This document shows, one piece after another, positions 21,427 to 44,184 of a stretch of DNA of 64,000 nucleotides. The notes below the pieces were generated by a model. The model did not search any database, was not told the origin of the DNA, and saw only the letters and a list, made by a program, of their open reading frames with translations. The DNA is taken from contig NZ_CP028426.1 of the NCBI RefSeq assembly GCF_003010915.2, forward strand, positions 1,612,001 to 1,676,000. Direction: 5' to 3'. How positions within the stretch are numbered: the stretch's first letter is position 1; every line of letters starts with the position of its first letter. Both the position numbers and the translations under genes were made by a program. The stretch comes from Gulosibacter molinativorax. Lineage in GTDB: Bacteria; Actinomycetota; Actinomycetes; Actinomycetales; Microbacteriaceae.

Positions 21427-24400
21427 CTAGTCCGAATCCACAATCGCCATGTCTGGCTCGTCCTCGCGCCTGACGCCAAACCCGATTCGACCGCGCGGCG
21501 CGGACCCGTAGGGCATCGCGAGCGAGATCAGCGTAGCGACGTCCTCGGGTTGGATTTTGTCTGGCCAAGCGGAGCGCTTCAACCGTGACTTTTCGGGACG
21601 GCCGTCAGCGGCAGCTTCTTCCTTGGTCACAACCGGGTCAAACGCGAAGGTGAGCAGGAGCGCTCCGCGCGTGCTCGTGGCCGACGCGTCCGCAGCATCA
21701 CCGGCCTTACGTTCCATGCCTGGCTTACCAGCGACCACTTCAAGGACAGTACGGTGCCTCGGCTCACTACCTGCATAACCCGGCCTATCTTTTCGTCGTT
21801 GACGCTCTCCGATCGAGATCTCCGATCCATTAACCGCACGCCGATACGACTCCCCCACTTGGGGAACAATGATCGCCCAATCGTCGAGTGTGCCCTCGCG
21901 AATGGCTCTTTCCATCATCGCGACGGTCGGGCTGAGCTGATCCTTCGAAACAAGTTCGATTTGCCGGAGTGCGGTCAATACCTCTTGAGCGCTAGCGACT
22001 CGAGTTCGTGCCGTAAAGTCTCTGCCGTTGGCGCCCCAAAAGGTTGCCGGTGCAGAAAGGCCCTGGAGCAGCGGCGCGATAGCTTCCAGGTGCGTCCTGT
22101 TGCGCGAACCGTCACCCCTATCGGCAAGCGAATTGAAGTCCTTGGCAACGCCTCCATCCCCTTCATACTGCAGAACAGCGTTATACATCTTGTTAGTTCC
22201 CGTCGGCCGAAGCCAGGGGAGCTGTTGAAACACGAGAGGCGGAACATGGATCGGTCTCACAACGGGCCGACCATCTTCCTTCAACTCAGAGAACTTCCGC
22301 AGCTGATCCCGAAATTCCTCTTCATCCTCGATGATGGAGGTAAATGCGTCGTAGAGGTCGTACGACTTACCTTTCGAATCCACCACATCTCGAGCGATAT
22401 ACAGCCGCACGAGGTCGCCGTACCCCGGTCGGTAACCGAACCATCGCCCCATCTGCATCAATGTATCTGCTGCCGTCGCACGCCGGCGATAGTACGAAAC
22501 CGTCAGCCCCTCGACAGTAAAACCCCGGCTCAGCTTCGCACCGCCAACCATCACGCGCCAATACGGACGCAGCTGAAAATCCATTGCGTCATAGTCACTG
22601 TCCTTAGTGCCATTGACGACGACCACCGGGTCAGTATCCGCGGTAATGTCGTTTACAGCTTCTCCAATAGCCATCTTCAACTCGTCGAAACGCTCCGGCA
22701 TTGGAAGGTTCTCCCACTCGGCACGAGAATCGTGCACGCGACGAAAATCACTGTCATACAACGACCTCAACCGAGCCATCCCTGCAGGCGTGCTGTAGCC
22801 AGCCTGAGCCCAGACGTCTCGGAAGCGGTCCGCAAGCTCGGAATGTTCCGAAGTCCGGACGGACTCATGGACGAGCATTGTGTGGTGCCGGTATTCAAAG
22901 CCCTCGAGGTTCGCTTGTCGCCATTTCTTGATCGCACCACTGAGGACGAACGCATCCAATGCATCTCGAATCTCTTGGTCCTCTGCCTGAGGATCGCTCT
23001 CGCCGTCGGCGATCAGATCCCTCACAAATGCGGCTTCGTTAGAACGCCCAGAATCATTCTTTGCATCGTCATCGATAACACCAAGGTCATGGAAATAGCG
23101 GCCACCCGCGTACTGGGATGACGGTTCGAGGCTCACGAGGAAGTCCTTCGGGAAGAGGTCTTCCGAGTCGTCCGGAGATATGAACACGTTCGCGAATGGC
23201 GTCGCAGTGTATCCGACGTACTGGGCACGAGGGAGCTCTTGCAACAACTGAGCGATGAGCTTATTGATCGTCGAGCGCTTCTTTGCGTCCGCCCGACTCT
23301 CCTTCGTCGAGCGCGGATTTACGGTGTTGACGGATGCCTGATCCGCTTCATCGTCGATGATGAGCGCCGGAATCTCCTTGCCATCAGCGCGGATGTTCTT
23401 GAGATCGTGGAGGAGGTTCTTCAGCGCGGTCGTGTTCTTCTTCATGACCGCGAGTCGCACATCAACCGAGTGGATGTTCTCTGACGCGTAGACCGGCTTG
23501 GCCATGTCCTGGAGTTCGCCGGTTCGGCGGAAATCCAATGTGTCTTTGCCGAGTCTTAGCTTCTTATAGTCCTGCTTCGCGGTCGTTAGCCGCTTAATTG
23601 CGGGCACTTCGGGCAGCGAATGTACGTCCTGCCCGTGGCGCAGGAATTTCCCGGAATACCAGTCGGAATCTTGTGTCCCGATGTAGTCAATCTCGCGAAT
23701 CGAATCCGGATCGTCGACGTCGGCGCCGTCAAGAATGTTTTCTTCACCGACAAGCTCCATATCGAGTCGCCGTTGAGTCTGCCCACGCAACAGCTCGATG
23801 GTGCCGGTAAGCACGATGATGAGTCGGTAGCCCGCGTCGATAGCCTTCGCAACGATGCCAGTAAAGTTCGCCGTCTTGCCGCTTTGAACGTGCCCGACGA
23901 CGAGTCCCTTCGTCTGATAACCGAGGGCTGCGCTTGGGTCCGCCAATCGTTGGACAATCTCAGTGGTCGAGCGATCGAGAGTCGTCAGAGCGTCGACGTC
24001 CCAACCCTTTCGCTCAAGGACGCCTCGATACGCACGCCAGTAAAAGTCATGCGAAGCCCTGCGATCTGCGTCATACCACGGCGTCCAGTTGTTCGGGTCG
24101 ACGATCATCGCATCCATTTGTGAGGCGCTCGGGAATTCCGCATCGAGTCGTTCGCGCACGGTTGGAGAAATCTCGAGAAGGTTGTAAATCAGCTCGCGGC
24201 GCTCGGGACTCCCCTGCTTCGTGGAACCGCCCCAATCCGGGTCGGTTGATGCGTCCCAGGCTGCGAGCGCGAGGTGCATGGCACGCCGAGTTGGATCATT
24301 GAATTCGGCCACCGTCGTTGAGGCAATGATGTCCGCCTCGGTTGGGTTCACGGAAGACTTGCGTAGATCAAATTCCACAAGTTCGACGAGATTCTCCGGT

Positions 24401-24471
24401 CCGGTATCGCGGATTTGACCGAGGACTTTCCGGACTGACCTCGAGATCCGATCATCTTCTTCGTGAATCAA
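21427..24471 (-). CDS. Z1-domain helicase-like protein
   Basis: 1014-aa protein of the Z1 family, related to superfamily 2 helicases and found in restriction-like defence loci with MORC-type ATPases. Motifs: Walker A GHVQSGKTANF (about residues 198-208), Walker B LIIDDEADQAS (about 370), motif III-like YTATPFANVF, motif V-like GGAKLSRGFTVEG and motif VI-like QMGRWFGYRPGY with the arginine finger. TTG start at 24471, overlapping the stop of the DUF4420 gene as TTGA, so it is translationally coupled. The C-terminal ~200 residues are less conserved. It would translocate or remodel DNA for the PD-(D/E)XK nuclease. Last gene of the operon; its downstream neighbours have been lost at the IS1634 junction. 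Confidence 0.88.
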   Translation of the reverse strand: MIHEEDDRISRSVRKVLGQIRDTGPENLVELVEFDLRKSSVNPTEADIIASTTVAEFNDPTRRAMHLALAAWDASTDPDWGGSTKQGSPERRELIYNLLEISPTVRERLDAEFPSASQMDAMIVDPNNWTPWYDADRRASHDFYWRAYRGVLERKGWDVDALTTLDRSTTEIVQRLADPSAALGYQTKGLVVGHVQSGKTANFTGIVAKAIDAGYRLIIVLTGTIELLRGQTQRRLDMELVGEENILDGADVDDPDSIREIDYIGTQDSDWYSGKFLRHGQDVHSLPEVPAIKRLTTAKQDYKKLRLGKDTLDFRRTGELQDMAKPVYASENIHSVDVRLAVMKKNTTALKNLLHDLKNIRADGKEIPALIIDDEADQASVNTVNPRSTKESRADAKKRSTINKLIAQLLQELPRAQYVGYTATPFANVFISPDDSEDLFPKDFLVSLEPSSQYAGGRYFHDLGVIDDDAKNDSGRSNEAAFVRDLIADGESDPQAEDQEIRDALDAFVLSGAIKKWRQANLEGFEYRHHTMLVHESVRTSEHSELADRFRDVWAQAGYSTPAGMARLRSLYDSDFRRVHDSRAEWENLPMPERFDELKMAIGEAVNDITADTDPVVVVNGTKDSDYDAMDFQLRPYWRVMVGGAKLSRGFTVEGLTVSYYRRRATAADTLMQMGRWFGYRPGYGDLVRLYIARDVVDSKGKSYDLYDAFTSIIEDEEEFRDQLRKFSELKEDGRPVVRPIHVPPLVFQQLPWLRPTGTNKMYNAVLQYEGDGGVAKDFNSLADRGDGSRNRTHLEAIAPLLQGLSAPATFWGANGRDFTARTRVASAQEVLTALRQIELVSKDQLSPTVAMMERAIREGTLDDWAIIVPQVGESYRRAVNGSEISIGERQRRKDRPGYAGSEPRHRTVLEVVAGKPGMERKAGDAADASATSTRGALLLTFAFDPVVTKEEAAADGRPEKSRLKRSAWPDKIQPEDVATLISLAMPYGSAPRGRIGFGVRREDEPDMAIVDSD

Positions 24472-25451
24472 GCTGGTGCCTCGCAGAACGTGTCAAGCGG
24501 TGAATGAACCGCGCTGTAGTTGAGATTCGAAACATTCACACGGTAAGTCACACCTACGACATTGGCGCGGTTCGGCACGACTTGGTCGAGCCGACCTGAC
24601 GTGATCGCTGGGAACTGGTCGTCGACGAGATACGCCCTGGGTTCGGAGCGCAGTTGAAATCTTCGCGGATAGAGATCGGCATCGGCTTGTCGCCACCCGA
24701 TGCATTCCATCGTGGCGTCGAACGAACGTAACCCGAATTCGAGTCGGGATCGAATATCCGCGATCAGCGACGGAAGCGTGATCGCCCTCGATGCGCCGCC
24801 AGCCAATGTCAGCTGTATCGATACGAGGAAGAGCGGTCGATCCCTCGACGGTTCGAGCTGTGACTCCGAGCCGATGAGATGTGTACGGGACTCCGACTTT
24901 GTCGTTTTTATCTCGGCGTCAAAGTCCGCGAACCCGAAATCGTGCTCCTCGGCACGAGGGCCTAGCCACGACACCAAGGCCTCTTCTTCACCGATTTCTG
25001 CGAGCACGTGTTGGAGCACGAGCAGCTCTCCAATGAGCCCGAGCTCCTTCTCATCGGTCAGTCGTTGCCGGTTCGAGAGCAAGTCTTTAAAGGAAGAGAG
25101 CGCTTCCGAGACGGAGAGCCGAAATGTCGCGCCCGCCCGCATCTGTTCGACGATGGCTTCGACCAAGACATACGCCTCATAATGCATGCCCGTCGCATCA
25201 ACAGTGAGCCGAAACCACTCGCGCCCCGATTGGGTGTAACGCCCGATAGTTAGCTTCTCGAAGCGAGTCACCTCAGGTTCAGCCCCCACCGCGGGAACTG
25301 TCAGTTCAATCGCTTCCTCGGCCGGAACGATTCGCATTCGAATTTCGGCCGAGGGGAACACCGGAAATGCAGTGCTCTCGCCGAACTTGAAATATTCTTC
25401 TATGGTGCTCGGATCAAGGTGAGTTGGGTCTTGGTCAGCGTTCTCCGTCAT
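24468..25451 (-). CDS. PD-(D/E)XK motif protein (DUF4420)
   Basis: 327-aa protein starting MTENADQDPTHLDPST. The ATG at 25451 overlaps the end of the ATPase gene by 17 bases; a longer upstream frame is shadow. The nuclease core is visible as HDFGFADFDAEIKTTKSESR (about residues 185-204), i.e. D-x(n)-E-x-K in the order expected for restriction nucleases. The N-terminal region (STAFPVFPSAEIRMRIV) and a long C-terminal beta-rich part are shared with DUF4420 proteins paired with Z1 and MORC ATPases. It is the likely effector nuclease of the locus. Active-site acidic residues appear intact. Confidence 0.85.
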   Translation of the reverse strand: MTENADQDPTHLDPSTIEEYFKFGESTAFPVFPSAEIRMRIVPAEEAIELTVPAVGAEPEVTRFEKLTIGRYTQSGREWFRLTVDATGMHYEAYVLVEAIVEQMRAGATFRLSVSEALSSFKDLLSNRQRLTDEKELGLIGELLVLQHVLAEIGEEEALVSWLGPRAEEHDFGFADFDAEIKTTKSESRTHLIGSESQLEPSRDRPLFLVSIQLTLAGGASRAITLPSLIADIRSRLEFGLRSFDATMECIGWRQADADLYPRRFQLRSEPRAYLVDDQFPAITSGRLDQVVPNRANVVGVTYRVNVSNLNYSAVHSPLDTFCEAPA

Positions 25452-26549
25452 CCCGCAAGTCTTTCTCTCGACGGCTCGATTCGTCACGCACTGCTGCCAG
25501 CAGAAGCTGATCCCATGCCGCAATTTCTGCTTTCTCACGTGGGCCGAGATAAGCGCCTTCAAAATACTTCGAATACACGATGAGGAGAAGCGTCTTGATC
25601 ACGGATGCGTCGTGATTGTCGCTGGGGTCGACACGCGACAACATTTCCCTGTATACAGTATTCAGCCAAAGCGTTCGCGTTTCGAGGTCTACGCGAACGA
25701 GCGATTCGGAATCAGGATCGAATTGCCAGCGAATATCGACCGGACCAGCTTCCGATGGTTCCACCGACTCGGCGAAGGCTTGACGAAGGGATGCGCTCAG
25801 TCCTCGGCCTGGGCTCACCAGCGTGACCGGTCGCTTGACGTAGCGTCGGCTCTCGCTTCGCCGCCCTTCAGCCACCGAGAGCATGTCAAAGAATGATGCT
25901 CCGTCGGGCCGAATCACCGCATTGCTAAGTGCTTCACGCAGGTCGGAATCGAGCTCGAGCCCCGCCTTTTCCGGGTTGATGGTGATGTGCGGCTGCAGTG
26001 CCTCGCCAATATCCATCGCAATCCGCACGTATTCCAGTTCGGGACGTTCTATAGTGAGTGTGTTCCAGCCCCCGATTTGTAGCAATCGATCATTGCGATA
26101 AAAATAAAAGCCTTGCGCTCGTGACCCGGGATTACCTCCGAGCCGAAACTCGGGGCGCCCAGATTGATTCGCTGGCCATATGTGCGCCGTGGCAGAACAA
26201 TCCTTGCCGTCGATCGAAAAACTCATCTCGGCCGGAAACTTGTCATTGGGCAAAGACGTGTACCCGAACGGATCAATTGGTGCCACCTTGCGCGGTGCAC
26301 CCGACTCTTCATAACCGATGTCAAATACATCGACTGTCACGCGAACTTTCAGTAGTTCGAGGTGCCGGTGGAAGACGATTCCGAGGTGAGTCATCAGTGA
26401 GCTGATTCGGTCATCAAGCCAACGCTCACGGTCACTGGTATCGGTGCTGGACAGAAACGTTCGGGGTTTTTTCCATTCCACGACGGTGCCCGTGGAAATT
26501 GCGAAATCAACTCGGAGGTTTTTCAGAATCGAGTCGACGTCGGTGTCCG

Positions 26550-27641
26550 CTAGTGTCCTGATCCGTTAATTCGTTTCAGGTATTTGGCGATGGATTCGAG
26601 GATTTCCTCGGCGGTCTTGGTCCAGATGAACGGCTTCGGGTTCTCGTTCCACGCCTTCACCCAACCGCGGAGGTCTCTCTCGAGCGCTTGCACGCTGCGA
26701 TGATCGGAACGCTGTAAAAGATCACGAGTAACTTCGGCGAAGAGCCGTTCAACCTGGTTGATCCATGACGAGTAAGTCGGCGTGAAGTGCATGTGAAACC
26801 GAGGGTGCTTGGCAAGCCACGCCTTAACGGTGGGGTGCTTGTGTGTGGAGTAGTTATCGCAGATCACATGCACGTCGAGGTGTTCGGGGACGTTCTTGTC
26901 GATCTTCTGGAGGAACTTCTTGAACTCGATCGAGCGATGCTTACGATGAATTGAGGAGATCACCGTCCCGTCAGCGACGTTCAGCGCGGCAAACAAACTC
27001 GTGGTGCCATGCCGGACATAGTCGTGTGAGCGCCGTTCGGGGACTCCCGGCATCATCGGGAACGCCGGTTGCGAGCGGGCCAAAGCCTGCACCTGACTTT
27101 TCTCATCCACACTGAGCACCACCGCCGACTCGGGTGGGTTCAGATAGAGGCCAACAATGTCGTAGACCTTCTCAGTAAACAGCGGGTCGTTGGAGAGCTT
27201 GAACCCTTCCTCCAGGTGGGGCTTCAACCCGAATGCCTTCCAGATCCGCCCCACTGTCGATTTCGACAGCCCCGACTTTTCCGCCATCTTCGCCCGTGAC
27301 CAGTGCGTCGCGTTCTGCGGCGTCGATTCCAGCGTGTCGATGACCACCTGTTCCACACGGTCCACACTGATCAGCGCGGGGCGACCCGGCCGCGGATCGT
27401 CAACGAGCCCGTCCAGCCGCCGCTCCAGAAACCGCGAACGCCACTTGCGCACCGTCGGTAACGACACCGCCATACGATTGGCCACCTCGGAATTCGAAGC
27501 CCCAGTCGCGCATTCCAACACGATCCGAGAACGCAACGCGAGATCCTGCGCTGACTTCCGGCGACGCACCCACCGTTCCAGTTGGTCACGCTCAGTTTCA
27601 GAGAGCTTCAGTTCGGGAAGAGAAGGTCCACGTGTTGCCAT
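26550..27641 (-). CDS. IS630-family transposase
   Basis: 363-aa transposase. N-terminal paired helix-turn-helix (SNSEVANRMAVSLPTVRKWR, about residues 49-68) and a second HTH (GLSKSTVGRIWKAFGL), then the DDE catalytic core: VVLSVDEKSQVQAL (Asp about 182), HVICDNYSTHKH (Asp about 272) and PTYSSWINQVERLF (Glu about 308). The stop codon TAG is completed by the duplicated target TA. Intact, so the element may still excise. Confidence 0.93.
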   Translation of the reverse strand: MATRGPSLPELKLSETERDQLERWVRRRKSAQDLALRSRIVLECATGASNSEVANRMAVSLPTVRKWRSRFLERRLDGLVDDPRPGRPALISVDRVEQVVIDTLESTPQNATHWSRAKMAEKSGLSKSTVGRIWKAFGLKPHLEEGFKLSNDPLFTEKVYDIVGLYLNPPESAVVLSVDEKSQVQALARSQPAFPMMPGVPERRSHDYVRHGTTSLFAALNVADGTVISSIHRKHRSIEFKKFLQKIDKNVPEHLDVHVICDNYSTHKHPTVKAWLAKHPRFHMHFTPTYSSWINQVERLFAEVTRDLLQRSDHRSVQALERDLRGWVKAWNENPKPFIWTKTAEEILESIAKYLKRINGSGH

Positions 27642-27687
27642 ACTCCATTCTACAAAACTAGCAACGAATTAACGGTGCAACACACTA
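26551..27687 (-). mobile_element. IS630-family element in the GHKL gene
   Basis: Element of 1,133 bp (26553-27685) with a TA on each side (26551-26552 and 27686-27687), the hallmark of IS630/Tc1-type insertion. The ends share GTGT and CCGTTAATTCGTT inverted repeats. Deleting the element plus one TA restores the ATPase reading frame exactly, so the insertion is clean and probably recent. Confidence 0.92.
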
Positions 27688-28098
27688 GTTCATGAATGCT
27701 AGTGCGATTTCGATCGTGGATGCTTCGCCCCGCCGGTACCGCTCCGTACCGCTGAGAATAAACATTCAGTATGTTCGCTTGGCTAAGCGATGCTGCTTTC
27801 AGGCCGAGCCCAAAGTGACCGAGCTCGGATGCACCGTACTCTCGCTGCCGCGCAAACTCCATCGCGTTGTCGAGGCTCGCACTGTCCATTCCTGATCCGT
27901 CATCGATGACCTGCAGCCCGGTTACCGCTCCATCCCGTTGGAGGAATCTGACTAGCACGTGTTCCGCACCCGCATCGATACTGTTGTCAACGATGTCGGC
28001 AACAGCAGTTTCGAACGTGTGGTGTCGCCCGACGGCCTCTGCAATTGAGGCGTGGGGCGGCACCTCTCGCGTTCTGACGACTCTCGCAATATTTGACA

Positions 28099-31000
28099 TC
28101 AGAGGTCCTCGAACGAATTCGGGTACACGCCGAGTTGGCTACCGTTCTCTCGTACGGTTCGCACCGTGGCGTCGTCAAATCCCGATGACTTGTCTGCATC
28201 AATCTCGATACGAATCTCGAGCTTGTCCGGGCCAGCGCGCCGGAGGTGCTCCAGAAGCTCTTCAGCTAGGAGCATCATCTGGTTTCGGAGATCCGTTCCC
28301 GGGTTCAGCTCGATCTCACCGTGGTAGCGAGCGTTCTTCACGATTTGACGTTCCCGAACGGAAGTCTCGCCCACCCGAGGTGTTGTCGCGGAGCCAGCGG
28401 ACGTGCCGCCCGTCGGTCCCGCCGCACCTACAGCGACCGTCGACTGCGCATTCGCTGCAGCGTCGGCGCGTTCACGCGCGACCTGTTCTTCGGCGAGCCG
28501 AGGCGCCACGAGCAGCGTTGAGTCGTCAACGGTGCCCGCCGAGCTCGACTCAAACGGGATCCGCAAGCCTATGAAGTCGCCAGTTGCTTCGTCATAGTCG
28601 TCCGCGAGCGCAAATCCTCGCTCGGTCCATGTCGCTTCAGCCATGACCGCGTGGATCGCTCCCAGCAGCACGTCTTTGTCTCTGAGCCTCGGCATGTACG
28701 GATACTGCAGGTGGTATTGCCACAGCTCACCAACCGAGATGTATCCCCGATTCCATCGGCTGCGAAGGTGTCCGTTCAGCACGAGCCAAAGCGCAAGGGG
28801 CGACGTGTTCGTGTAGATAACATCGTCCCGCCCGAGGCGCAGGCCTGCGCGAACCGCGAGCCTGTATTCGTGACCCTCCACCTTCATGGTCGTCAGTGTG
28901 GCTGGCTGCGAACCGTCGGCCTGCTCCGGGAACGTCGCCCATATCCACGCAGACGTGAGTCGTTGATCGACAACGGCACGCGTCTCACTTTCGCGCCGCC
29001 GAGCATGCTCGGCCTGACTTTGGGTGAGGTCGAGCTCTCGCACGGATGACGCGATGTCGGCCCAGGCGATGTGTTGCCGCAGGGCATCCTCAGCTTCAGC
29101 CCAACGGTTTTGATCCGCACCTAGCATGACGATCGTGTTCGCGAATTGTCGCGCCGCACTTCCGCGATGCCGAAGAAGTTCCCCGGCGAATTCTCTCCCC
29201 GGGCCGTCCTTACCTTTCGAAGCAAAGCTATGCCTCGGATGCAAGACCACCAGCCGCACGGATTCGGCTTCGGTCACATCAGAGGTCGCTTCGGGAGCAA
29301 GGACGACGGATGCGAATTCCGGGGCTGTGCCGGTGGTTCCGCGCAGCAGCGACACGGCTTTGCTATATACATCCTCGACGTCGATTGCCTGAGCACGTTC
29401 CGCGACCATCCGGTTCACGGAGGGTTGACGGTCGTACCAATAGCGCGTGCCCTCGGAGTAGAGGTAGGTGGCACGGTCGGCAAGCATCTGCAGTGCGGAG
29501 CCAAAGTTGCCAAGGCTGTCACCCGGCATCGCGACGCCCAGGAACACCCGTTGGCGCTCGATGCCCTTGTGCCCACTGTCCAGCGTCGCGGCAGATCCAA
29601 GGAACAGTGCTCGCGCGATTCGTCGGGTGAGGGCTCGCCGGCCAAACAATGGCCGCTCTCTATCGATCTGCAGCGGGGCGGCATTCTCCCCATCGATGTC
29701 AGTCTCGATAATGCTGCGCCACGCGTCGTCGAGGTAGGCGGTCACCTCGTCGCGCACAGCCAAGTCATCGAGTGGGAGCGATCCCGGCATAATAAGTGGC
29801 GAGTCGTCACCGGATGCATGGAGCGAGTGCACCACCGCACTCATCAGCCGCAGCACGCCACGCGTGCGCTGGAATCGCTCAAGCGTCGACCAGTCGCCGT
29901 AAAGTCTGTCAAAGAGTTCCGGATGGATCGGGTACGCCGCCCGCAACCGTGCCTCGTATTCCACCTGGCGCGTTTCCGTCGGCAACTCACCGACCTGACC
30001 ACGGTAGTACTCGGTAAATCGACGCACAGTAGCGTCGATCTTTCTTCTTCCTTCGGCGTCCGGCTCGGTGAACAGTCGACGCCGCACGATTTCGAAAGAC
30101 TCTCCGCTCGAAGCAGGAGTCCAATTGTGAGCCACTCGAGCAACCACATGCTGCAACCGCTGCAGCGCTGCACGGCCGTTCGCCCCACCAATCTCTAACT
30201 CCGAACCCGCTGTCGGTGCATCCGGCTCGTCTAACCGCACGTCGGAAGATGGAATCGAGACGAGCAATAGCGCACCAGGAACAGACTGCACGGCCGCCGT
30301 GAGCTGCTGCGCGAACGTGAATTGAGTGTCAAAAGTCCCGCCGACGAGATCATCGCGACCATAGAGCCCACGGGCGTAGGCGACCCATTCGTCGATCAGG
30401 ATCAGCGCGGGCGAATAGCGCGCAATAAGCGTTCGCAATGCCTCACCCGGGTTCGTACCAGTTCGGTCGGCCTCCGCAACCATCGCAAACCCATCCGTGC
30501 CTCCCAGTTGCCAGGCGAGCTCACCCCAAATCGTGTTGACGACGGTGCCATCCGGTTTAATCGTGGGTTGTCCCGGCGCCATCTCGTTGCCGACGATCGC
30601 GACGCGATGGACCGCTCGATCGAATGCCGTTGAGTCTTTGTCACTGAACAAATCCTGCAACTGCTGGGGATACGCGTCGAGGCCCTCCTCGCTGAATAGG
30701 TGCCACGCTGCGAGCATCGAGTGCGTCTTGCCGCCTCCGAAGGTCGTCTGCAGGTTAACGACCGACTGCGCGTTTGCATCGCCAGCAATACGCTTCGCAC
30801 TCATCTTGAGCAGTGTCTTCAGTCCCTCAGTGAGGTAGGTGCGTTCGAAGAACTGAATCGGGTCACCGTACTCCGGTGAGGCTTCCCCAACCGCAACCTG
30901 GTGAAGGTCGGCCGCGAACTCAGCGCGCGCGAAGTTACCCTCGGCGATGTCGGGATGCGGTGAGAGCACTTCTCGCCACGGAGTCAGCTCGGCGTCTGCG

Positions 31001-31494
31001 AGCTCGGGCATCGCAGCAGATGCGGCTCGCACGTCGCGCCTTGTCTCCTCGGCGTATGTCGCTCGTTGAGCGTCGACTCGCATGCGTCGCACAACGTCGG
31101 CCTGCTTTGGCGCACCGATCGCGCGGAGAAGTCGCTCACACGTGTCGAGCGCTCGATAGGTGTCGTCTGCGCTAAAGGGTCTGTTGTCATGAGCCCAGCG
31201 ATTGCGCACTTCGCGCATCTCCCCCGCGAGGTTTTGTTCGGCGCGAGACAAGCGATCGTTGAAGACAAACCCAAGCGCCCCGAGGCGTTCCGTCACCGCG
31301 CGCAGCTGGATCTGCACGTCGGTGGGGTCGTAGTCACGAGGTGCGCGCGTTTCGCCGTCTTTGACCCGTAGGATCGCAGTCCAGTCAAGCCCTTCGGGAA
31401 CGTGCGGTCGCAAAGTGTCTTCTACAAAGGGTTCGAGCCCAGCGCTGAGTTGCTCCAGCGCTCGACCCACACGTTCTCTGTTGCTGATGGCCAT
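28099..31494 (-). CDS. DUF499 protein: HEPN plus AAA-like ATPase
   Basis: 1131-aa protein. The N-terminal ~130 residues form a Swt1-type HEPN domain with RNRWAH at 97-102, the R-x4-H motif of HEPN ribonucleases. The ATPase region has Walker A TTFGGGKTHS (251-260) and Walker B LILIDEWVAYAR (about 365-376), as in DUF499 proteins. The C-terminal part ends with a low-complexity linker (ANAQSTVAVGAAGPTGG) and a ~100-residue domain. ATG at 31494, two bases after the DUF1156 stop; it overlaps the next gene as TGATG. DUF499 is repeatedly found with DUF1156 methyltransferases in predicted anti-phage loci. It likely senses or processes nucleic acid; a toxic RNase function is possible. Confidence 0.87.
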   Translation of the reverse strand: MAISNRERVGRALEQLSAGLEPFVEDTLRPHVPEGLDWTAILRVKDGETRAPRDYDPTDVQIQLRAVTERLGALGFVFNDRLSRAEQNLAGEMREVRNRWAHDNRPFSADDTYRALDTCERLLRAIGAPKQADVVRRMRVDAQRATYAEETRRDVRAASAAMPELADAELTPWREVLSPHPDIAEGNFARAEFAADLHQVAVGEASPEYGDPIQFFERTYLTEGLKTLLKMSAKRIAGDANAQSVVNLQTTFGGGKTHSMLAAWHLFSEEGLDAYPQQLQDLFSDKDSTAFDRAVHRVAIVGNEMAPGQPTIKPDGTVVNTIWGELAWQLGGTDGFAMVAEADRTGTNPGEALRTLIARYSPALILIDEWVAYARGLYGRDDLVGGTFDTQFTFAQQLTAAVQSVPGALLLVSIPSSDVRLDEPDAPTAGSELEIGGANGRAALQRLQHVVARVAHNWTPASSGESFEIVRRRLFTEPDAEGRRKIDATVRRFTEYYRGQVGELPTETRQVEYEARLRAAYPIHPELFDRLYGDWSTLERFQRTRGVLRLMSAVVHSLHASGDDSPLIMPGSLPLDDLAVRDEVTAYLDDAWRSIIETDIDGENAAPLQIDRERPLFGRRALTRRIARALFLGSAATLDSGHKGIERQRVFLGVAMPGDSLGNFGSALQMLADRATYLYSEGTRYWYDRQPSVNRMVAERAQAIDVEDVYSKAVSLLRGTTGTAPEFASVVLAPEATSDVTEAESVRLVVLHPRHSFASKGKDGPGREFAGELLRHRGSAARQFANTIVMLGADQNRWAEAEDALRQHIAWADIASSVRELDLTQSQAEHARRRESETRAVVDQRLTSAWIWATFPEQADGSQPATLTTMKVEGHEYRLAVRAGLRLGRDDVIYTNTSPLALWLVLNGHLRSRWNRGYISVGELWQYHLQYPYMPRLRDKDVLLGAIHAVMAEATWTERGFALADDYDEATGDFIGLRIPFESSSAGTVDDSTLLVAPRLAEEQVARERADAAANAQSTVAVGAAGPTGGTSAGSATTPRVGETSVRERQIVKNARYHGEIELNPGTDLRNQMMLLAEELLEHLRRAGPDKLEIRIEIDADKSSGFDDATVRTVRENGSQLGVYPNSFEDL

Positions 31495-31496
31495 GG

Positions 31497-34346
31497 TCAG
31501 ATCTCCCCGAGCGAGTCAAAATCAAGTTGCGTAGATACCGCGCGGGATGTGCTCGTCTGTTCGTCCGCCCGGGCCGCGGCACGGATTTCCGGCCACGAAG
31601 CCGCGACGTCGTTGAAAAGGATCTGCGCGGAAGTGCGACCCTTCTTTTCGCTGATTTGGTGCAGTAAATATGAAAGTTGATGCACTGCTGATCCGTTAAT
31701 TCCGCGCGCCTCCGCGCGGTTGAGGATGCGCCCGGCAACGTCGAGTCCGCCACTGTCGTCGTTGAGCGCGCGTGCCAGATGCAGCGTGATCTCCCAAAGG
31801 CTGATGCGGTAGTCCTTGGCCGGGTCGTATCCCTCGGGCAGCTCGTCCGGGCTGAAGAGCGAAACCTTGCCGCCACCGGACCGCAGAACTCCCGCTCTTC
31901 GCAGAGCATCTATCGAGGCATTCTTCGCGTTCGCCAGCGTCTCGGCCTCGCCGTACGGCGCCTCGTCAAAACCGTGCCCTTCGTACCAGGCGATGCACCA
32001 CCGGGTGTCGGCGTCGAACTCGCCCTCTTGTTCCGACACGACTTCGTCGAGCACCGCGTTAATCTGGCGGAGCGCCTCCCTAACACGCATGCTCGACCCG
32101 TCAGACTCGATGACCTCCGAGTACTTCGAAAACACGGCCATGCCCGGGCCAATCGCTGCTTGTGCCAGGTCCACGGGCGCAACACTCCCTTGCTGCAGAG
32201 CACGCAATGCGTCCGGCAACGTTGCCCGCAATTCAGCGGAAAAACTCCGTCTATCAATAGGTGGCGCGGTCTCGGGTCGCGGGCGAAGTGCAAGGACGAT
32301 TGATGAAGCAAGCGCGTTGGTTCCGCTGGCAATCATCCTGTTACCGAGCTCCGATCGAACGGGCCAAGTTGCGGTTATCGACCAGCCAGCACGGATCATG
32401 CTTCCGAGTATGGTTTCCCACCCCGTGGAGGCCGTCCCCTCAGCGTCGATCTCCGACTGTTTGAATGCGTAGTAAACGGTGATCGGATAGGCAGAGTTTG
32501 CGCTCTCGCGCGCACGTGCGAATACGTCCTCGAATCCGTGTTCGAAAAAATCCCGCGCACCTTCTCTGCCACCGTGGCGGTACGGATTTGCTACAAGCTC
32601 TTCTGCCTTCGGAACCAACATAGTGCTAAACAAGTCCTGGTGAATAGCCCGCAGGGATCGGCGGAGCCACACATAGAAATAATCCGAAAGATCCGAATAA
32701 CCGATGTTGTCGTAATACGGTGGATCTGTCGATAAGACCACATTTTCATAGTCCCTCGAGGCCGCGTCAGCAGATTCCACCACTCCATATCCAGCCGCTG
32801 GCAAACGGTCGAGTACCCGAGTAACCCACGCGAGGTCTTCTAAGTAATCTCCACCGGAGCCTCCAAAAGGGTTCGCCTCGGCGAAATCCCAGGCCATCGG
32901 GATTGCTTGCCTCGCAAACACTCCCCTCACTGATTCCATTTTCGGACTCGAGTCCCAAGTACATATTGAAGACAGCTTGTTGGTGACTCGACTAATTGCT
33001 TGGGCAAGGTAAGTACTAACCGCATCCGCATAAGCCGCAGCACCCGCACCACCTTCTTCGAGTCGCTCGCCTTCTGGTATACCCTTGTCAAGCGCATCAT
33101 GCATCACCTGTTCCCGCGCTTCACCAACAAGATCACTGAACGTCGTCAATGCCGTCAGCTGCCGGTTCGTGAATAACGACGCGTAGGTTTTCAGTCCATA
33201 GGAAGGCGTCCAAATATTCCTAGGGTCTATACCTAGTTTTTGGGTTGGCACGTCTTGCGGCGCTGGTACGGAGGCAGCACTAATGTGCTCAGAATTCGGC
33301 TCCATATAAATTCGTTGGCGTCTGCCCTCTGCCACGATGGCAATAAGCGTTGCACCGAGGCCGCCGTGGACTCCTTGATCTTTAATGTAGTCCACAGAGA
33401 CAGCAGAGGAACAAGACACACAAATTGCCCCCTTCCGTCCTGACATCGTGCCGTCGTTTTCTTTGGTCGGCGCCCCGGCTTTGTCATGCCCAATCGAATA
33501 CTCAACCCGCCCGTCCACGACCGACGGCACGACGTATGCTTCTTTGCCTTTCTTCTTTCCCAACCACCACGAACGCACAAGCGGCATTTCTATACCACAA
33601 GCCGGGTTCGGGCACGTCACGGTGCGAGCCCAGATCCAGGCAATAACGTTCGCCTCGCTGCCGTCCTCAAGCTTCGCTTTCGGGTACAGGTGACCTATCC
33701 TGCGTTCCGCCTCATCACGCATCCACGCACCGTAGCGGCGAACATCCTCGGCCAGACCCGTTGCCTTCGGCCAACCAATTCTCTCGCCCGCGGCATCGGG
33801 ATATACCGGCGGTCGATTCGCAAACTTCGACGGAATCTCGATGAGCGCCTTATTGATCAATACTGCGACGGGGTTGAGGTCAGAAGCATGAGCCTCGAGC
33901 CCAAGCCGCTGCGCCTCCAACGGAATCGTGCCGCCACCTGCAAACGGGTCAAGGATTGCGGGCGGTTTGCCGCCCGTCGAATGATCGATTTCCGCGCGCA
34001 CCTCGTCGAATAGCGCCTCGTCGCCGAGGTTGTCCCAGTCGACCATGCGTGTAATGAGGTCGAAGAGCCGCTCGCGCTCGGATTCCACGCGCTGCTCAGC
34101 GAATGCATCCGCATCAGTTTCGCCTCGTGCCGTCCCTTCAGCTCGAAACTCCTCCTCTCGGCAAGATGGGTCGTCCACGAGCTGAGCGAAGAGCACCGCC
34201 CTCGCCGTCGCGAGTGGGCGGCGTGCCCACCACAGGTGAAGCGTTGAGGGGTGGCCATGACGAATCGATTTTTCACGCGCCGACTGCGCATTGATCGCGT
34301 CGAGCGGCAGAGCCACCTCTATCAGCTTCTTCTTCGACAAGCTCAC
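31497..34346 (-). CDS. DUF1156 DNA methyltransferase
   Basis: 949-aa methyltransferase. The opening KKLIEVALPLDAINAQSARE and HPSTLHLWWARRPLA is the DUF1156 signature. SAM-binding motif I is DPFAGGGTIPLEA (133-145) and the catalytic DPPYYDNI is at 541-548, so an amino group of adenine (N6) or cytosine (N4) is the target. The ~400 residues between them contain two Cys pairs (C245, C250; C309, C312) that may form a zinc ribbon or target-recognition module. GTG start at 34346. It is first in the five-gene minus operon and divergent from the m5C methyltransferase at 34521. Self-modification partner of the DUF499 protein. Confidence 0.9.
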   Translation of the reverse strand: MSLSKKKLIEVALPLDAINAQSAREKSIRHGHPSTLHLWWARRPLATARAVLFAQLVDDPSCREEEFRAEGTARGETDADAFAEQRVESERERLFDLITRMVDWDNLGDEALFDEVRAEIDHSTGGKPPAILDPFAGGGTIPLEAQRLGLEAHASDLNPVAVLINKALIEIPSKFANRPPVYPDAAGERIGWPKATGLAEDVRRYGAWMRDEAERRIGHLYPKAKLEDGSEANVIAWIWARTVTCPNPACGIEMPLVRSWWLGKKKGKEAYVVPSVVDGRVEYSIGHDKAGAPTKENDGTMSGRKGAICVSCSSAVSVDYIKDQGVHGGLGATLIAIVAEGRRQRIYMEPNSEHISAASVPAPQDVPTQKLGIDPRNIWTPSYGLKTYASLFTNRQLTALTTFSDLVGEAREQVMHDALDKGIPEGERLEEGGAGAAAYADAVSTYLAQAISRVTNKLSSICTWDSSPKMESVRGVFARQAIPMAWDFAEANPFGGSGGDYLEDLAWVTRVLDRLPAAGYGVVESADAASRDYENVVLSTDPPYYDNIGYSDLSDYFYVWLRRSLRAIHQDLFSTMLVPKAEELVANPYRHGGREGARDFFEHGFEDVFARARESANSAYPITVYYAFKQSEIDAEGTASTGWETILGSMIRAGWSITATWPVRSELGNRMIASGTNALASSIVLALRPRPETAPPIDRRSFSAELRATLPDALRALQQGSVAPVDLAQAAIGPGMAVFSKYSEVIESDGSSMRVREALRQINAVLDEVVSEQEGEFDADTRWCIAWYEGHGFDEAPYGEAETLANAKNASIDALRRAGVLRSGGGKVSLFSPDELPEGYDPAKDYRISLWEITLHLARALNDDSGGLDVAGRILNRAEARGINGSAVHQLSYLLHQISEKKGRTSAQILFNDVAASWPEIRAAARADEQTSTSRAVSTQLDFDSLGEI

Positions 34347-34520
34347 TCCGTCATACTTTCATCCACCTCACAATCGACGTCTATTCGCCAGTGTGCAGGA
34401 AACCTCACCTTGATCGTTGACCCAAGCCTATCGGCCAGCGACATTCTGAACTCGACCCGCAATCGTCGCGGCTGGCGCGCCGACCGCGCATGTCGCTGGC
34501 GCCAACTAGGCTTACGACCT
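34347..34520. promoter_or_regulatory. divergent promoter region of the defence locus
   Basis: 174 bases between the DUF1156 GTG and the m5C methyltransferase ATG. On the plus strand TAGGCT lies about 9 bases before the ATG at 34521, so that message is probably leaderless. No clear operator palindrome is seen. Confidence 0.4.
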
Positions 34521-35615
34521 ATGACCAGCAGCACGATTCGCGTTCTTGATCTCTTTGCGGGCGCGGGAGGGCTGACTGCTGGCTTCCACGAATCATCCGA
34601 GCGTTTCGAGACGGTGTCTGCTGTCGAGATGGATCCCGCGGCTGCGGCATCGTTCGAAGCAACGTTTGGACGAGGCATCGTCTATACCGGCTCGATCCAG
34701 GACTGGTTGTCTTCAGATCGGATGCCGCGTGACGTCGACGTCGTCGTCGGAGGCCCACCATGCCAGGGCTTTTCGACTCTTGGGAAGCAAGATGTAGAGG
34801 ATGAGCGCAATTCCCTCTGGGTTCAGTATGCGAAGACGCTCAATCTCGTCAAACCGCGGTACTTCGTGGTGGAGAACGTCGCAGCATTTGCAAAGTCGAC
34901 GCAGTTCGAGCAATTCGTGGCAGCGACTCAACCTGGTGGTTGGCTTGAGGATTACGCGTTCCGGCACGCTGTCCTGAACGCCGCGGACTACGGGGCTCCG
35001 CAAGCTCGGAAGCGGGCCGTACTCATTGGTCATCACAAAGACTTGCCGTTTCCCGGTTTTCCCGGTGCCACGCACTCGGCTACTGGAGAAGATGGCAAGA
35101 AGAGGCACAGTACCGTCTCGGAATGGTTTGCCGGTGTTCCCGCGCTTCCAGACCGTGACTCGGTTTTCTCGGCCAGATCTGTAGAGCACCACGGCAAAGT
35201 TTTTCCCGGGGAATTTGCACCCCGCGAACTTCACTGGAGCAGAAGCTATCAGGACCTCTCGCTCAAGCGTTTCGCGAGCATCCCTCCCGGCGGGAATCGC
35301 TTTGACCTGCCGGACGAGCTGAAAGCACCGTGCTGGCGAAAGCACACATCGGGCTCTGGCGATGTCATGGGCAGGCTTCATGCCGATCGACCATCAGTGA
35401 CGATTCGGACCGAATTCTTCAAGCCCGAGAAGGGTCGGTACCTCCACCCCACTGAGAACCGAGCGATCACGCACTATGAGGCGGCTCTGCTTCAAGGGTT
35501 CCCAGACAACCACCGATTCGTGGGGTCGAAGACTGCGATTGCGCGGCAGATCGGCAACGCCGTACCCATCCCCCTGGGGAAGGCGATAGCGCAGCAGCTC
35601 GAACGGCATTTCTAG
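34521..35615 (+). CDS. DNA (cytosine-5) methyltransferase
   Basis: 364-aa C5-cytosine methyltransferase of the Dcm family. Motif I VLDLFAGAGGLTAGF (8-22), catalytic GGPPCQGFSTLG (Cys81), ENV at 118-120, QARKRAVLIG (motif VIII) and QIGNAVPIPLGKAIAQQL (motif X) are all present. I use the ATG at 34521; upstream in-frame sequence overlaps the DUF1156 gene and has no motif. It would protect host DNA for the nuclease encoded by the MORC/Z1 module, a combination described in Iyer, Abhiman and Aravind's 2008 survey of MORC-associated restriction systems. Its last ~560 bases are duplicated at 37317-37874. Confidence 0.92.
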   Translation: MTSSTIRVLDLFAGAGGLTAGFHESSERFETVSAVEMDPAAAASFEATFGRGIVYTGSIQDWLSSDRMPRDVDVVVGGPPCQGFSTLGKQDVEDERNSLWVQYAKTLNLVKPRYFVVENVAAFAKSTQFEQFVAATQPGGWLEDYAFRHAVLNAADYGAPQARKRAVLIGHHKDLPFPGFPGATHSATGEDGKKRHSTVSEWFAGVPALPDRDSVFSARSVEHHGKVFPGEFAPRELHWSRSYQDLSLKRFASIPPGGNRFDLPDELKAPCWRKHTSGSGDVMGRLHADRPSVTIRTEFFKPEKGRYLHPTENRAITHYEAALLQGFPDNHRFVGSKTAIARQIGNAVPIPLGKAIAQQLERHF

Positions 35616-35819
35616 CGCAATGTGTTTGGCTCAGCTGGAGCCAGCACCTTTTTGAGGCCACGCGAATGGGCCCCAGCGGGCCACTCCCCCAATCGAATAC
35701 CAAAACGTCAAATTGCCAATCAGACGTTCCTCTCCCTGCTGCGATCAGCAGACCGCAGGGTGTCGGCGTGGAAGAAATATCACCATCGAAAAGCACGGCT
35801 CCACTGCTACGGTGAGCCC

Positions 35820-37070: not shown

Positions 37071-37882
<812 letters not shown>

Positions 37883-37981
37883 AGCAATGTGGTGGCGTCA
37901 ACTGGCGTGTGCAACTTTTTGAAACCGCCAGCTTGTGATCCCGCCAACAGGTTCCCCCTAGAATATCGCGACCTCACATAG

Positions 37982-38890
37982 CTACTCTGTGCGCTTCGAC
38001 TTCTGCTGCGCCATCGCGCGAAGCCTTCGCTGAACTTCAGGTGGCGTCACAGAAACAAGCCGCTGACCACCCAGTTTCGGATAGAGCGGCCGATCCCGAC
38101 TGAAGATTGTGGAGTGATGCATATCCGGCACACCCTTGTTCCAGAGATGCAACTTCGATTCATGGGTGAACGAGCCCCGAACCGCATCGATTGCGCCACC
38201 CGTAATCCATCCAAAATCAGAATGCTCGATGAGCTGATATTCGACCGCCCGGGATACGCAAGCTGCAACCCAATCGGCAAACTGGATATTCGCACTTACG
38301 GCACTATCTAGATGCATCGGCGGCTCGACGATCCGCCGCATCTCCTCGAACTCACCCGAACGACTAAACATGTGGGCGTACATCGTCGGCATCCGTTCAA
38401 TGCGCTGTTTCTCGTTTACCTGATCCATCATCACAAGCAGATGATTGTGACGACTCTCAGCGTGGCGCGCAAGACGGTTCAGCGTCTCCTTCATGGCCAT
38501 GGCCTCGCGGGCATCCGTGTCTAGGTGAGTCTGGTTCGGCGTCCCAAGTGGTTTCTCATCGATGTAGTAGAAGAGGTTTCCACCGACCGAGCGGAGCCGC
38601 CGCACCAGTGCGCTAAAAACGCGGATCTGCTGAGGATACTTGTCGAGAGTTACCCTACGGAAGATCGCAGAGCCTTTCTTCTCCCATTGTGCGGGTCGGT
38701 CGCTGGCGGCGATTTCGGTGGCGTAGACCTTCCGCTTCTCCTCGGCAAACCAACTACCGAAACGTCGAGCTTCGGGAGCTGGCACGACGAATCCCGCATA
38801 GCCGAAGGCAGGACTGGTGTTAAATCGGGAATGATCCTTCGACACGAACGCGCCGGTCTCGCCAACCTCGTCAAGATACGCCAGAAGCAT
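37982..38890 (-). CDS. DUF3800 domain protein, copy B
   Basis: 302 aa, nearly identical to the protein at 621-1529. Differences: EEMRRIV for EEMLRIV, PKLGGQ for PKLDGQ and the tail KSKRTE for KSNNEN. The family's acidic positions YLDE, MMDQV and QFADW are conserved, so both copies should be functional. ATG at 38890, with the same hairpin 30 bases upstream. Downstream (left) lies the duplicated methyltransferase fragment. The retained coding capacity of two copies argues for recent duplication. Confidence 0.85.
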   Translation of the reverse strand: MLLAYLDEVGETGAFVSKDHSRFNTSPAFGYAGFVVPAPEARRFGSWFAEEKRKVYATEIAASDRPAQWEKKGSAIFRRVTLDKYPQQIRVFSALVRRLRSVGGNLFYYIDEKPLGTPNQTHLDTDAREAMAMKETLNRLARHAESRHNHLLVMMDQVNEKQRIERMPTMYAHMFSRSGEFEEMRRIVEPPMHLDSAVSANIQFADWVAACVSRAVEYQLIEHSDFGWITGGAIDAVRGSFTHESKLHLWNKGVPDMHHSTIFSRDRPLYPKLGGQRLVSVTPPEVQRRLRAMAQQKSKRTE

Positions 38891-39027
38891 GCATCCATCT
38901 TGTCCGCAGCCTCCGACACGAAAGCCCGCGCTCTCGCGCGGGCTTTCCGAATCGGCGCTCAGAGACCTATTTCATTCTCCGCTACCGGAAACCATGCTAG
39001 CCACTTTCGTTGTTAACTGCCAAGCTC
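37995..39027. repeat. long direct repeat, copy B (DUF3800 gene plus leader)
   Basis: Second copy of the 1.03-kb repeat at 634-1666. Here the dispersed repeat behind it is uninterrupted, which allows the IS in copy A to be delimited. The two copies bracket about 37 kb of cargo in the same orientation. Confidence 0.9.
38920..38947 (-). ncRNA. leader hairpin of DUF3800 gene, copy B
   Basis: Identical to the hairpin at 1559-1586: a 12-bp perfect stem with a GNRA-type loop in the minus-strand RNA, 30 nt before the start codon. Confidence 0.55.
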
Positions 39028-40352: not shown

Positions 40353-43300
40353 TCAAAGCCTCGGGACCTCAGCCGGTCTGGCGCTTGATCGTGACCCCTC
40401 CCACGACGATCGTGCCAGTCCTTCGATCGAGCGAAGCGCACCCTCAGCGCGTGCACGGTCAACCTTCTGGGTTGTGGCATCGGGAGTGGGCCCGAGAGGT
40501 GTCGCTGCCGTGACTCCGTACCGATCGCGATAAGCGGCGACCACGCGAGCGTTGCGGCGCCAGACGTTGAGGCTGCGCAGATCGCCAGGCTCGGCGGTGA
40601 CTGCCGTCAACCATGGCGCTGAATCAGTAATTGCCGCGCTGAGGAGTGCGTCTGCCCGCTCTTCGATCAGCTCCGCACGCTCCGTGAGTGAGCGTTGCAT
40701 CTCCTCGTTCATCGCACCGGTCGCTTCGGGAATGAGCCCAGCGATGAGCCTCGCGGGCTTCTTGATGCGCCCCGATCCGGCGGGTCGTGTGGTTGCAGTA
40801 GCCACACGGTGACGCAGCACCGCGGCGATGTCGTCGGCGTCACCGAAGTCACGCGCAGGCACGAGACGAGGCAGCAGTCGCTCGACGTCGTGGTTGTTAG
40901 CCTCAGCCCGGCGTAGCTCAGCGGTAAGCGGCCCGAACGCATCAGAATCGACCACACTCTCCGCTTGCTCGGCGCTCAGCCCGGAGGACCTGATCAGCGA
41001 CGCCCACCGGTCGCGCTGCGCGGCAGCGGCGATCGTCTCGTACTCGGCGGCGAGCTGGGCGATGGTTCCCCAGAGCTCTTGCTCGGCGGCGAGGGTTTCG
41101 TGCGCAGACAGCTCGGCGCCCACGTGCTGGAGCACACCACTCAGAACGCTCTGTGCGGTGGCCTCCCCATGGTCGCCGGGGTGCGGACCTACGTGGGAGT
41201 CATCGGGCTTGTCGACTGCGACGTAGGCGATGTTCGCGTCGCGACCCCGGGTCGTTGCGACGTACAGGCTCTCGCGCGTCAGCGAAGCATCCACAAGTAC
41301 ATGCGCTGTGTCAGTGGTCAGGCCTTGGGCGCGGAAGGAGGTGACAGCGTAGCCGAGATCGACGTGCTCGGCGACGTAGTCTGCCGGGAGCAGCAGGTTG
41401 GCTCCTCGTGAGCGTCCTTCCCGTCGAATGAGCATCGAACCATCCGTGCGAACATCGAGAACGTGCCACCGGTCACCATTGCGTACCCAGCTTCCAGCTG
41501 CCCGAAGTCGCCGATCGTTCTTACGCGTGATCACGACGTCGCCGTTCGCCGCTTGGGTGCCGTCGTGCAGGTCAACTTCGCGCGGGCCGCGCACGACACC
41601 ATCGAGGATCAGGGCTGTACGTGCACGAGTGTTGAGCGCAGTGACCGATTTGTTCGAGTCAGAGACGAGCACGGTCGCCCGCCCGACGAGTTGGTCGGTC
41701 CGCCATGCAGCGTACGCGGCCTCGATCATGGCTTCGGTGTCACCCTCAACGATGCGGCCGCGCTCCGCGTAGGTGTCGAGCACTTCGGCGCGACCGTGGC
41801 GGAGGTCGAGGGAGGCGCGCTTCTCCCAGTCGTGTGTGAAACGGTGCACGTCGACGAGTTCGGCGACGTCGTCACGGTCGTGAGCGAGAAGCCCGAACGC
41901 ACCGCCCGCGTCCACAGCTTGGAGCTGCGCGTAGTCACCAACGAGCAACACCTTCGCTCCAGTGTCCGCCGCGAGCCCGACGATGCGGTCAAGTGACAGC
42001 GTTCCGGCAAGGGATGCCTCGTCGATGATGACGAGCTGATTCGCGGTGAACGTCTCACCGGTTTGGAGGTGTGTCTGCCACCACTTCGCGGTGTTCTCAG
42101 TCACGATCCCGAGGTCTTCGCCGAGCACCTCGGCCGCGCCCGACGAGGGCGCGAGTCCGACAACAGAGCCTGGGCCGTGCTCCTTCTCCCACGCCCGGCG
42201 GAGCGCGCTCATCGCTGTCGTCTTTCCTGCTCCGGCGGGGCCGACCAGCACGTCGACCACGCGTCCAGACACGGCGATCGCCGCCAGCGCGGATGCTTGA
42301 TCAACGCCGAGCATCCGTCGCTCACCGTCCGGCTTCCGCGAAACTCGTTCGATGGTCGCCAGCGGAATTGTGGGGCCCGACGTCGTCCGTGAGAGCTGCA
42401 GCAATCGGTCCTCGGCGTCGAGCAGTTCCCCTGATGAGAAGACGGTGGAATGCTTCGGGCGGAACACCGACGACTCATCGGCACGTCGGAAGACTGCGGG
42501 ACTGGATGCCAGCTCGGGCGGCGTCAACCGGAATGATGCACTCTCGGCAGCATCCACGACCATGCCGATCACCGCCTCGCGGTCGCGCGTGCTCGCAAAG
42601 CGATACCCCATTGTCTGGCGGGCCGCCTCGGCGGTGAGGTTCCAGCGTCGCCAGGTGGAGCGCTTCTCCCCTACAGTCGCGACCACGCTCGAACCGAGGT
42701 TCGCGATGACGTCCACTGGCATATCGTCTGTACGTAACAACATTGGCGCATCGTTGGCGACAACCGTTCGCGCCCAGCTCGTCGCGCCTTCCTCCAGGAT
42801 CGCCCCAGCGCGTTGCCGCCAGCGGTCAGTGAGGTCAGCGAGCGAATGGATCTCCTTCTCCGGCCGCGTCGCGAGTGTCGCCTGAGCACGCAGCTTGATG
42901 ATCCTCGCACTGGATGGCTGCCTGCCGTGCTTATCGACGTACGCCGCGATGAGACGATCCTTCTCCTCATCAATGTGTCTCGAACGCGATGAAAACGCAT
43001 CGACCAGGGCCTGCGGAACTGAGGCAATGCTCCACGCCGGGTTTCGGTCGCGACCTCGCTCGCGGGCTTCCCATTCGACGCCCAGTGTGCGTGTGAGGTG
43101 GTCGGCGAACACGGCTTCATGAAGCTCGGAGAGCGCGACCGTTGCGGCGTGCATCGGGCGGCTGTCGAGGCTGCGCCATTTGTTGTCGAGCACGGTCTGG
43201 ACCTTGTTGCTGATGACGACGTGGGTGTGTAGGTGTGGGTCACCAGCCCGTGAGTCGTAGTGGTCGTATGCCGTCGCGATCAACCCGCGTACGTCGACCT

Positions 43301-43901
43301 GCGCAACGGCACCGTCGCCGGGGGTTGCACCGGCGCGAGTGGCTGCAACTTCGCGCTCCATGAACGCAACCACCTCTGCAACCGCCGCATGGTGGGCATC
43401 AACGATGAGCGATTGCGTCCCAGCGTCGGCGACCCCCCAGAGCACGGAGGCGGACTTCGGGATCGAGAACGTGTAGTCATATCCTGCGACCGCTCGACGG
43501 GTGCCCCGCGCTGACTCTTCAGCTTCGATCGCAGCCACCTCGCGACCGCGCGCCGCAGCGCTTAGATCGGGCGCGAGCGCAGCGACTCGCTCGGCGATCC
43601 GATCGGCTCTGGGCTTGTATTGCGGATACGCCCGCCCGAGTGGTTCGCCCGTGATGGGGTCGCGGCCCATACCGATGAGCAGCTGGAGCTGGGCCTCGGA
43701 GACCTCTTCGCCCACGAGGAGTCGTCCGCCTCCAAGCGCAGCCACGCCATCACCCATCCACCTGCCGGGTGGCGTGCCGTCGGCGCCGTAGTAGCGCGTC
43801 AGCGGCGTCGAGAGGTCGCGGTCACCGTCCCCGGCTGCGACGGTGCGCAACAGGTACTTGTACCCATCGCCCGCCGACATCAGCCTCATCGACACCGTCA
43901 T
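40353..43901 (-). CDS. MobF-type relaxase/helicase (TraA-like)
   Basis: About 1182-aa conjugative relaxase. The N-terminal TrwC-like domain has MRLMSAGDGYKYLLRTVA with the candidate nicking tyrosines and the metal-binding three-His motif DPHLHTHVVISNK. The RecD-like helicase half has Walker A GPAGAGKTTAM, IIDEASLAG, LLVGDYAQLQAVD and a late SFRAQGLTTD/VATTRGRD. I use the ATG at 43901 (GGTGGG upstream); an ATG at 43940 is in frame but precedes a palindrome. It would nick at oriT and unwind the strand for transfer. No coupling protein or T4SS gene is adjacent; other transfer genes appear at 57-60.7 kb. Confidence 0.92.
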   Translation of the reverse strand: MTVSMRLMSAGDGYKYLLRTVAAGDGDRDLSTPLTRYYGADGTPPGRWMGDGVAALGGGRLLVGEEVSEAQLQLLIGMGRDPITGEPLGRAYPQYKPRADRIAERVAALAPDLSAAARGREVAAIEAEESARGTRRAVAGYDYTFSIPKSASVLWGVADAGTQSLIVDAHHAAVAEVVAFMEREVAATRAGATPGDGAVAQVDVRGLIATAYDHYDSRAGDPHLHTHVVISNKVQTVLDNKWRSLDSRPMHAATVALSELHEAVFADHLTRTLGVEWEARERGRDRNPAWSIASVPQALVDAFSSRSRHIDEEKDRLIAAYVDKHGRQPSSARIIKLRAQATLATRPEKEIHSLADLTDRWRQRAGAILEEGATSWARTVVANDAPMLLRTDDMPVDVIANLGSSVVATVGEKRSTWRRWNLTAEAARQTMGYRFASTRDREAVIGMVVDAAESASFRLTPPELASSPAVFRRADESSVFRPKHSTVFSSGELLDAEDRLLQLSRTTSGPTIPLATIERVSRKPDGERRMLGVDQASALAAIAVSGRVVDVLVGPAGAGKTTAMSALRRAWEKEHGPGSVVGLAPSSGAAEVLGEDLGIVTENTAKWWQTHLQTGETFTANQLVIIDEASLAGTLSLDRIVGLAADTGAKVLLVGDYAQLQAVDAGGAFGLLAHDRDDVAELVDVHRFTHDWEKRASLDLRHGRAEVLDTYAERGRIVEGDTEAMIEAAYAAWRTDQLVGRATVLVSDSNKSVTALNTRARTALILDGVVRGPREVDLHDGTQAANGDVVITRKNDRRLRAAGSWVRNGDRWHVLDVRTDGSMLIRREGRSRGANLLLPADYVAEHVDLGYAVTSFRAQGLTTDTAHVLVDASLTRESLYVATTRGRDANIAYVAVDKPDDSHVGPHPGDHGEATAQSVLSGVLQHVGAELSAHETLAAEQELWGTIAQLAAEYETIAAAAQRDRWASLIRSSGLSAEQAESVVDSDAFGPLTAELRRAEANNHDVERLLPRLVPARDFGDADDIAAVLRHRVATATTRPAGSGRIKKPARLIAGLIPEATGAMNEEMQRSLTERAELIEERADALLSAAITDSAPWLTAVTAEPGDLRSLNVWRRNARVVAAYRDRYGVTAATPLGPTPDATTQKVDRARAEGALRSIEGLARSSWEGSRSSARPAEVPRL

Positions 43902-43914
43902 TCGTGCCCACCTA

Positions 43915-43931
43915 TCCTCCGTTACGGAGGA
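43915..43931. promoter_or_regulatory. palindrome in the relaxase leader
   Basis: TCCTCCGTTACGGAGGA, 7-bp arms around a 3-base centre, 14 bases before the relaxase ATG. In the transcript one arm contains the GGAGGA Shine-Dalgarno, so the hairpin could hide the ribosome site; a repressor operator is the alternative. Confidence 0.45.
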
Positions 43932-44184
43932 GGTGAACATGTGGCATCTGAGGCGTCACGAACTCGTCGCGGAAGGCGACGTTCCTCGATCTGCCAGACG
44001 CGTGGGGCTACAGACGAAGGTCTGGCCTGTGTCAACGACCGGCGTGATCGATCAAGTCCAGGCGACAAGAACCTCCACGGCATACCTTGGTTCAGTGCGC
44101 AGGTCAACGCCGCGAGTGCCGACCTCGGGCAGCTGCTCGTTCCGTCCTTTGGCACATGCCACTCAGAAACCACACTCCCGCTGA
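43932..44184. other. intergenic between relaxase and copper operon
   Basis: About 250 bases without a convincing gene. It could contain the transfer origin, since relaxase genes often lie beside oriT, but I see no diagnostic nic-site consensus. Confidence 0.3.

Follow-up and report, generated by a model that had tools for sequence, protein, structure and literature searches.

Do the genes at positions 21427 to 35615 of a 64,000-nucleotide stretch of the Gulosibacter molinativorax genome (contig NZ_CP028426.1; hereafter the window) form one defence locus, or are they neighbours by accident? Five minus-strand genes stand here beside a divergent gene for a C5-cytosine (m5C) DNA methyltransferase. 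The PADLOC models identify the first two minus-strand genes as HmaB and HmaC, the remaining matches being weak relatives of Mza components. In this cluster the DNA-cutting motor protein usual for an Hma-type anti-virus system seems to have given way to another cutting module, made up of three proteins. This combination, which we call a hybrid locus, is found again in related bacteria, beyond the present strain.

Gene layout of the locus

34521..35615, plus strand: divergent m5C DNA methyltransferase, 364 aa (Pfam DNA_methylase, 197 bits)
34347..34520, no strand: divergent spacer, HmaB to m5C
31497..34346, minus strand: HmaB-like DUF1156 amino-methyltransferase, 949 aa (Pfam DUF1156, 94 bits; PADLOC HmaB, 1124 bits)
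28099..31494, minus strand: HmaC-like HEPN(Swt1)-DUF499 AAA+ ATPase, 1131 aa (Pfam HEPN_Swt1, 105 bits; DUF499, 84 bits; PADLOC HmaC, 863 bits)
27686..28099, minus strand: MORC-like GHKL ATPase, N part, 138 codons, with N, G1 and G2 boxes (HATPase_c_3, 87 bits; MzaB, 62 bits; phase arithmetic)
26551..27687, minus strand: IS630-type insertion element (end repeats, TA at both ends; DDE_3 and HTH domains)
25435..26550, minus strand: MORC-like GHKL ATPase, C part, 371 aa, transducer side (MzaB, 22 bits)
24468..25451, minus strand: DUF4420 PD-(D/E)XK nuclease, 327 aa (frame open to 25562)
21427..24471, minus strand: fifth gene, assigned to Z1 in the earlier note

The gene positions claimed in the earlier note are borne out, as are the junctions it described (a 2-base gap, TGATG, a 17-base overlap and TTGA). 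The most likely start of the m5C gene is 34521, which gives a 364-aa product, a length found in several relatives, and a divergent spacer of 174 bases. This spacer presumably carries both promoters; a scan of 34347..34520 for promoter consensus sequences found none.

Conservation of the hybrid loci

The earlier note had proposed to ask whether gene order and junctions are conserved in other genomes. A single gene order with tight junctions was found in 15 hybrid loci from at least four families, with HmaC-MORC spacings of -4 to +6 bases in all 14 loci measured. Transposase genes abound in the window, and a TrwC relaxase gene is present as well, a setting in which defence genes could come to lie side by side by chance. 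This conservation already contradicts such an origin, and co-occurrence was seen in 8 genomes against 0.42 expected; we consider chance adjacency extremely improbable.

HmaB exhibits DPFxGGG and (D/N/S)PPY in 15/15 hybrids, and HmaC its Walker A and B motifs in 15/15 and RxxxxH in all 13 aligned sequences. The D..ExK active-site pattern of the predicted DUF4420 nuclease is present in 14 of 15 sequences, including the present one (L155 is the exception), and the PCQ and ENV motifs of the m5C enzyme in 11/11. No HmaA was found within the hybrid loci themselves, nor in the nine hybrid genomes checked, where the best matches were 80 bits (present genome) and 47 bits (the eight others).

In the stretches fetched, the m5C gene is divergent from HmaB in 11 of the 15 hybrids. 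In nine of these the distance is at most about 0.7 kb; it grows to 1.9 kb in L114 and 3.7 kb in L116. G345 has a 70% relative about 5 kb away, bringing the total to 12/15. Searches of G242 and G074 for m5C gave no match, and that of G193 yielded only one of 75 bits. Because of this count, m5C is a common yet optional partner, and HmaB is the constant modification enzyme of the hybrids. In the three genomes where no close m5C relative was found, the cutting module would have no modification enzyme of its own. The interpretation in the earlier note, an operonic union implying dual modification, is supported in part.

A protein matching Sigma70_r4 and HNH_repeat is encoded upstream of HmaB in a hybrid lacking m5C (L008:6032-7063), and an RT_UG5-nitrilase reverse-transcriptase defence gene adjoins a Leucobacter hybrid locus (L002:2481-5816). 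An HmaB remnant (L159:5520-5927) sits between m5C and MORC, as if a hybrid had lost HmaBC.

The split MORC-like gene

The N, G1 and G2 boxes are present in 13 to 14 of 14 single-frame relatives and in the N part of the present locus, and a profile of the relatives matches MORC2 (5e-9) and PMS2 (5e-4). Judged from these boxes and the MORC/MutL similarity, the protein is a predicted MORC-type GHKL ATPase. The C part is in phase with the N part and clusters with the single-frame relatives. The MORC gene of the present strain is broken by the mobile element, whose transposase open reading frame spans 26550-27641 and which has five full-length genomic copies at 100% rounded identity. The observation in the earlier note is confirmed in part. 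The break would suit a strain that had lost restriction and retained its methyltransferases for regulation or for protection against other systems, an orphan modification locus that we regard as unlikely.

Relation to known systems

Measured against the Mza models, the proteins come out as distant relatives: MzaC 222 bits, MzaD 40 bits, and MzaB 62 and 22 bits for the two pieces of the MORC-like gene. A further Mza component is an AIPR protein.

As in the Hma or Type-1 BREX-related (BR) system (PMC8565338; PMC12839542), HmaB and HmaC are adjacent and co-oriented. No HmaA, the Swi2/Snf2 helicase that in most cases is joined to a PD-(D/E)XK nuclease, was found, so the locus is a variant of this system rather than a member. 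The Type-2 and Type-3 BR systems, in the part of their description consulted (PMC12839542), similarly combine a DUF499 ATPase and an amino-methyltransferase with a different effector nuclease, but in both the Swi2/Snf2 helicase is still present, together with an HKD nuclease or PglZ. The operons described by Iyer et al. 2008 (PMC2292703) resemble the present locus: they contain MORC, an SF2 helicase with an extra C-terminal domain, a restriction endonuclease (RE)-fold protein and, often, a cytosine methylase. DUF1156 does not occur in the main text of that paper. CglI/NgoAVII restriction-modification (PMC4267653) employs a PLD nuclease, and its three genes include neither MORC nor HmaBC.

Neighbouring sequences

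Two copies of the 3' part of the m5C gene (35025-35655 and 37292-37922; 632 bp, 97%) lie on either side of a serine-hydrolase-type gene with PF00144 (35622-37040). At 634-1666 and 37995-39027 stand the two copies of a direct repeat of 1033 bp (99%), each overlapping a DUF3800 gene. Positions 40353-43940 and their flanks are rich in mobile elements, with a TrwC relaxase-helicase, several transposases and two P-type ATPases.
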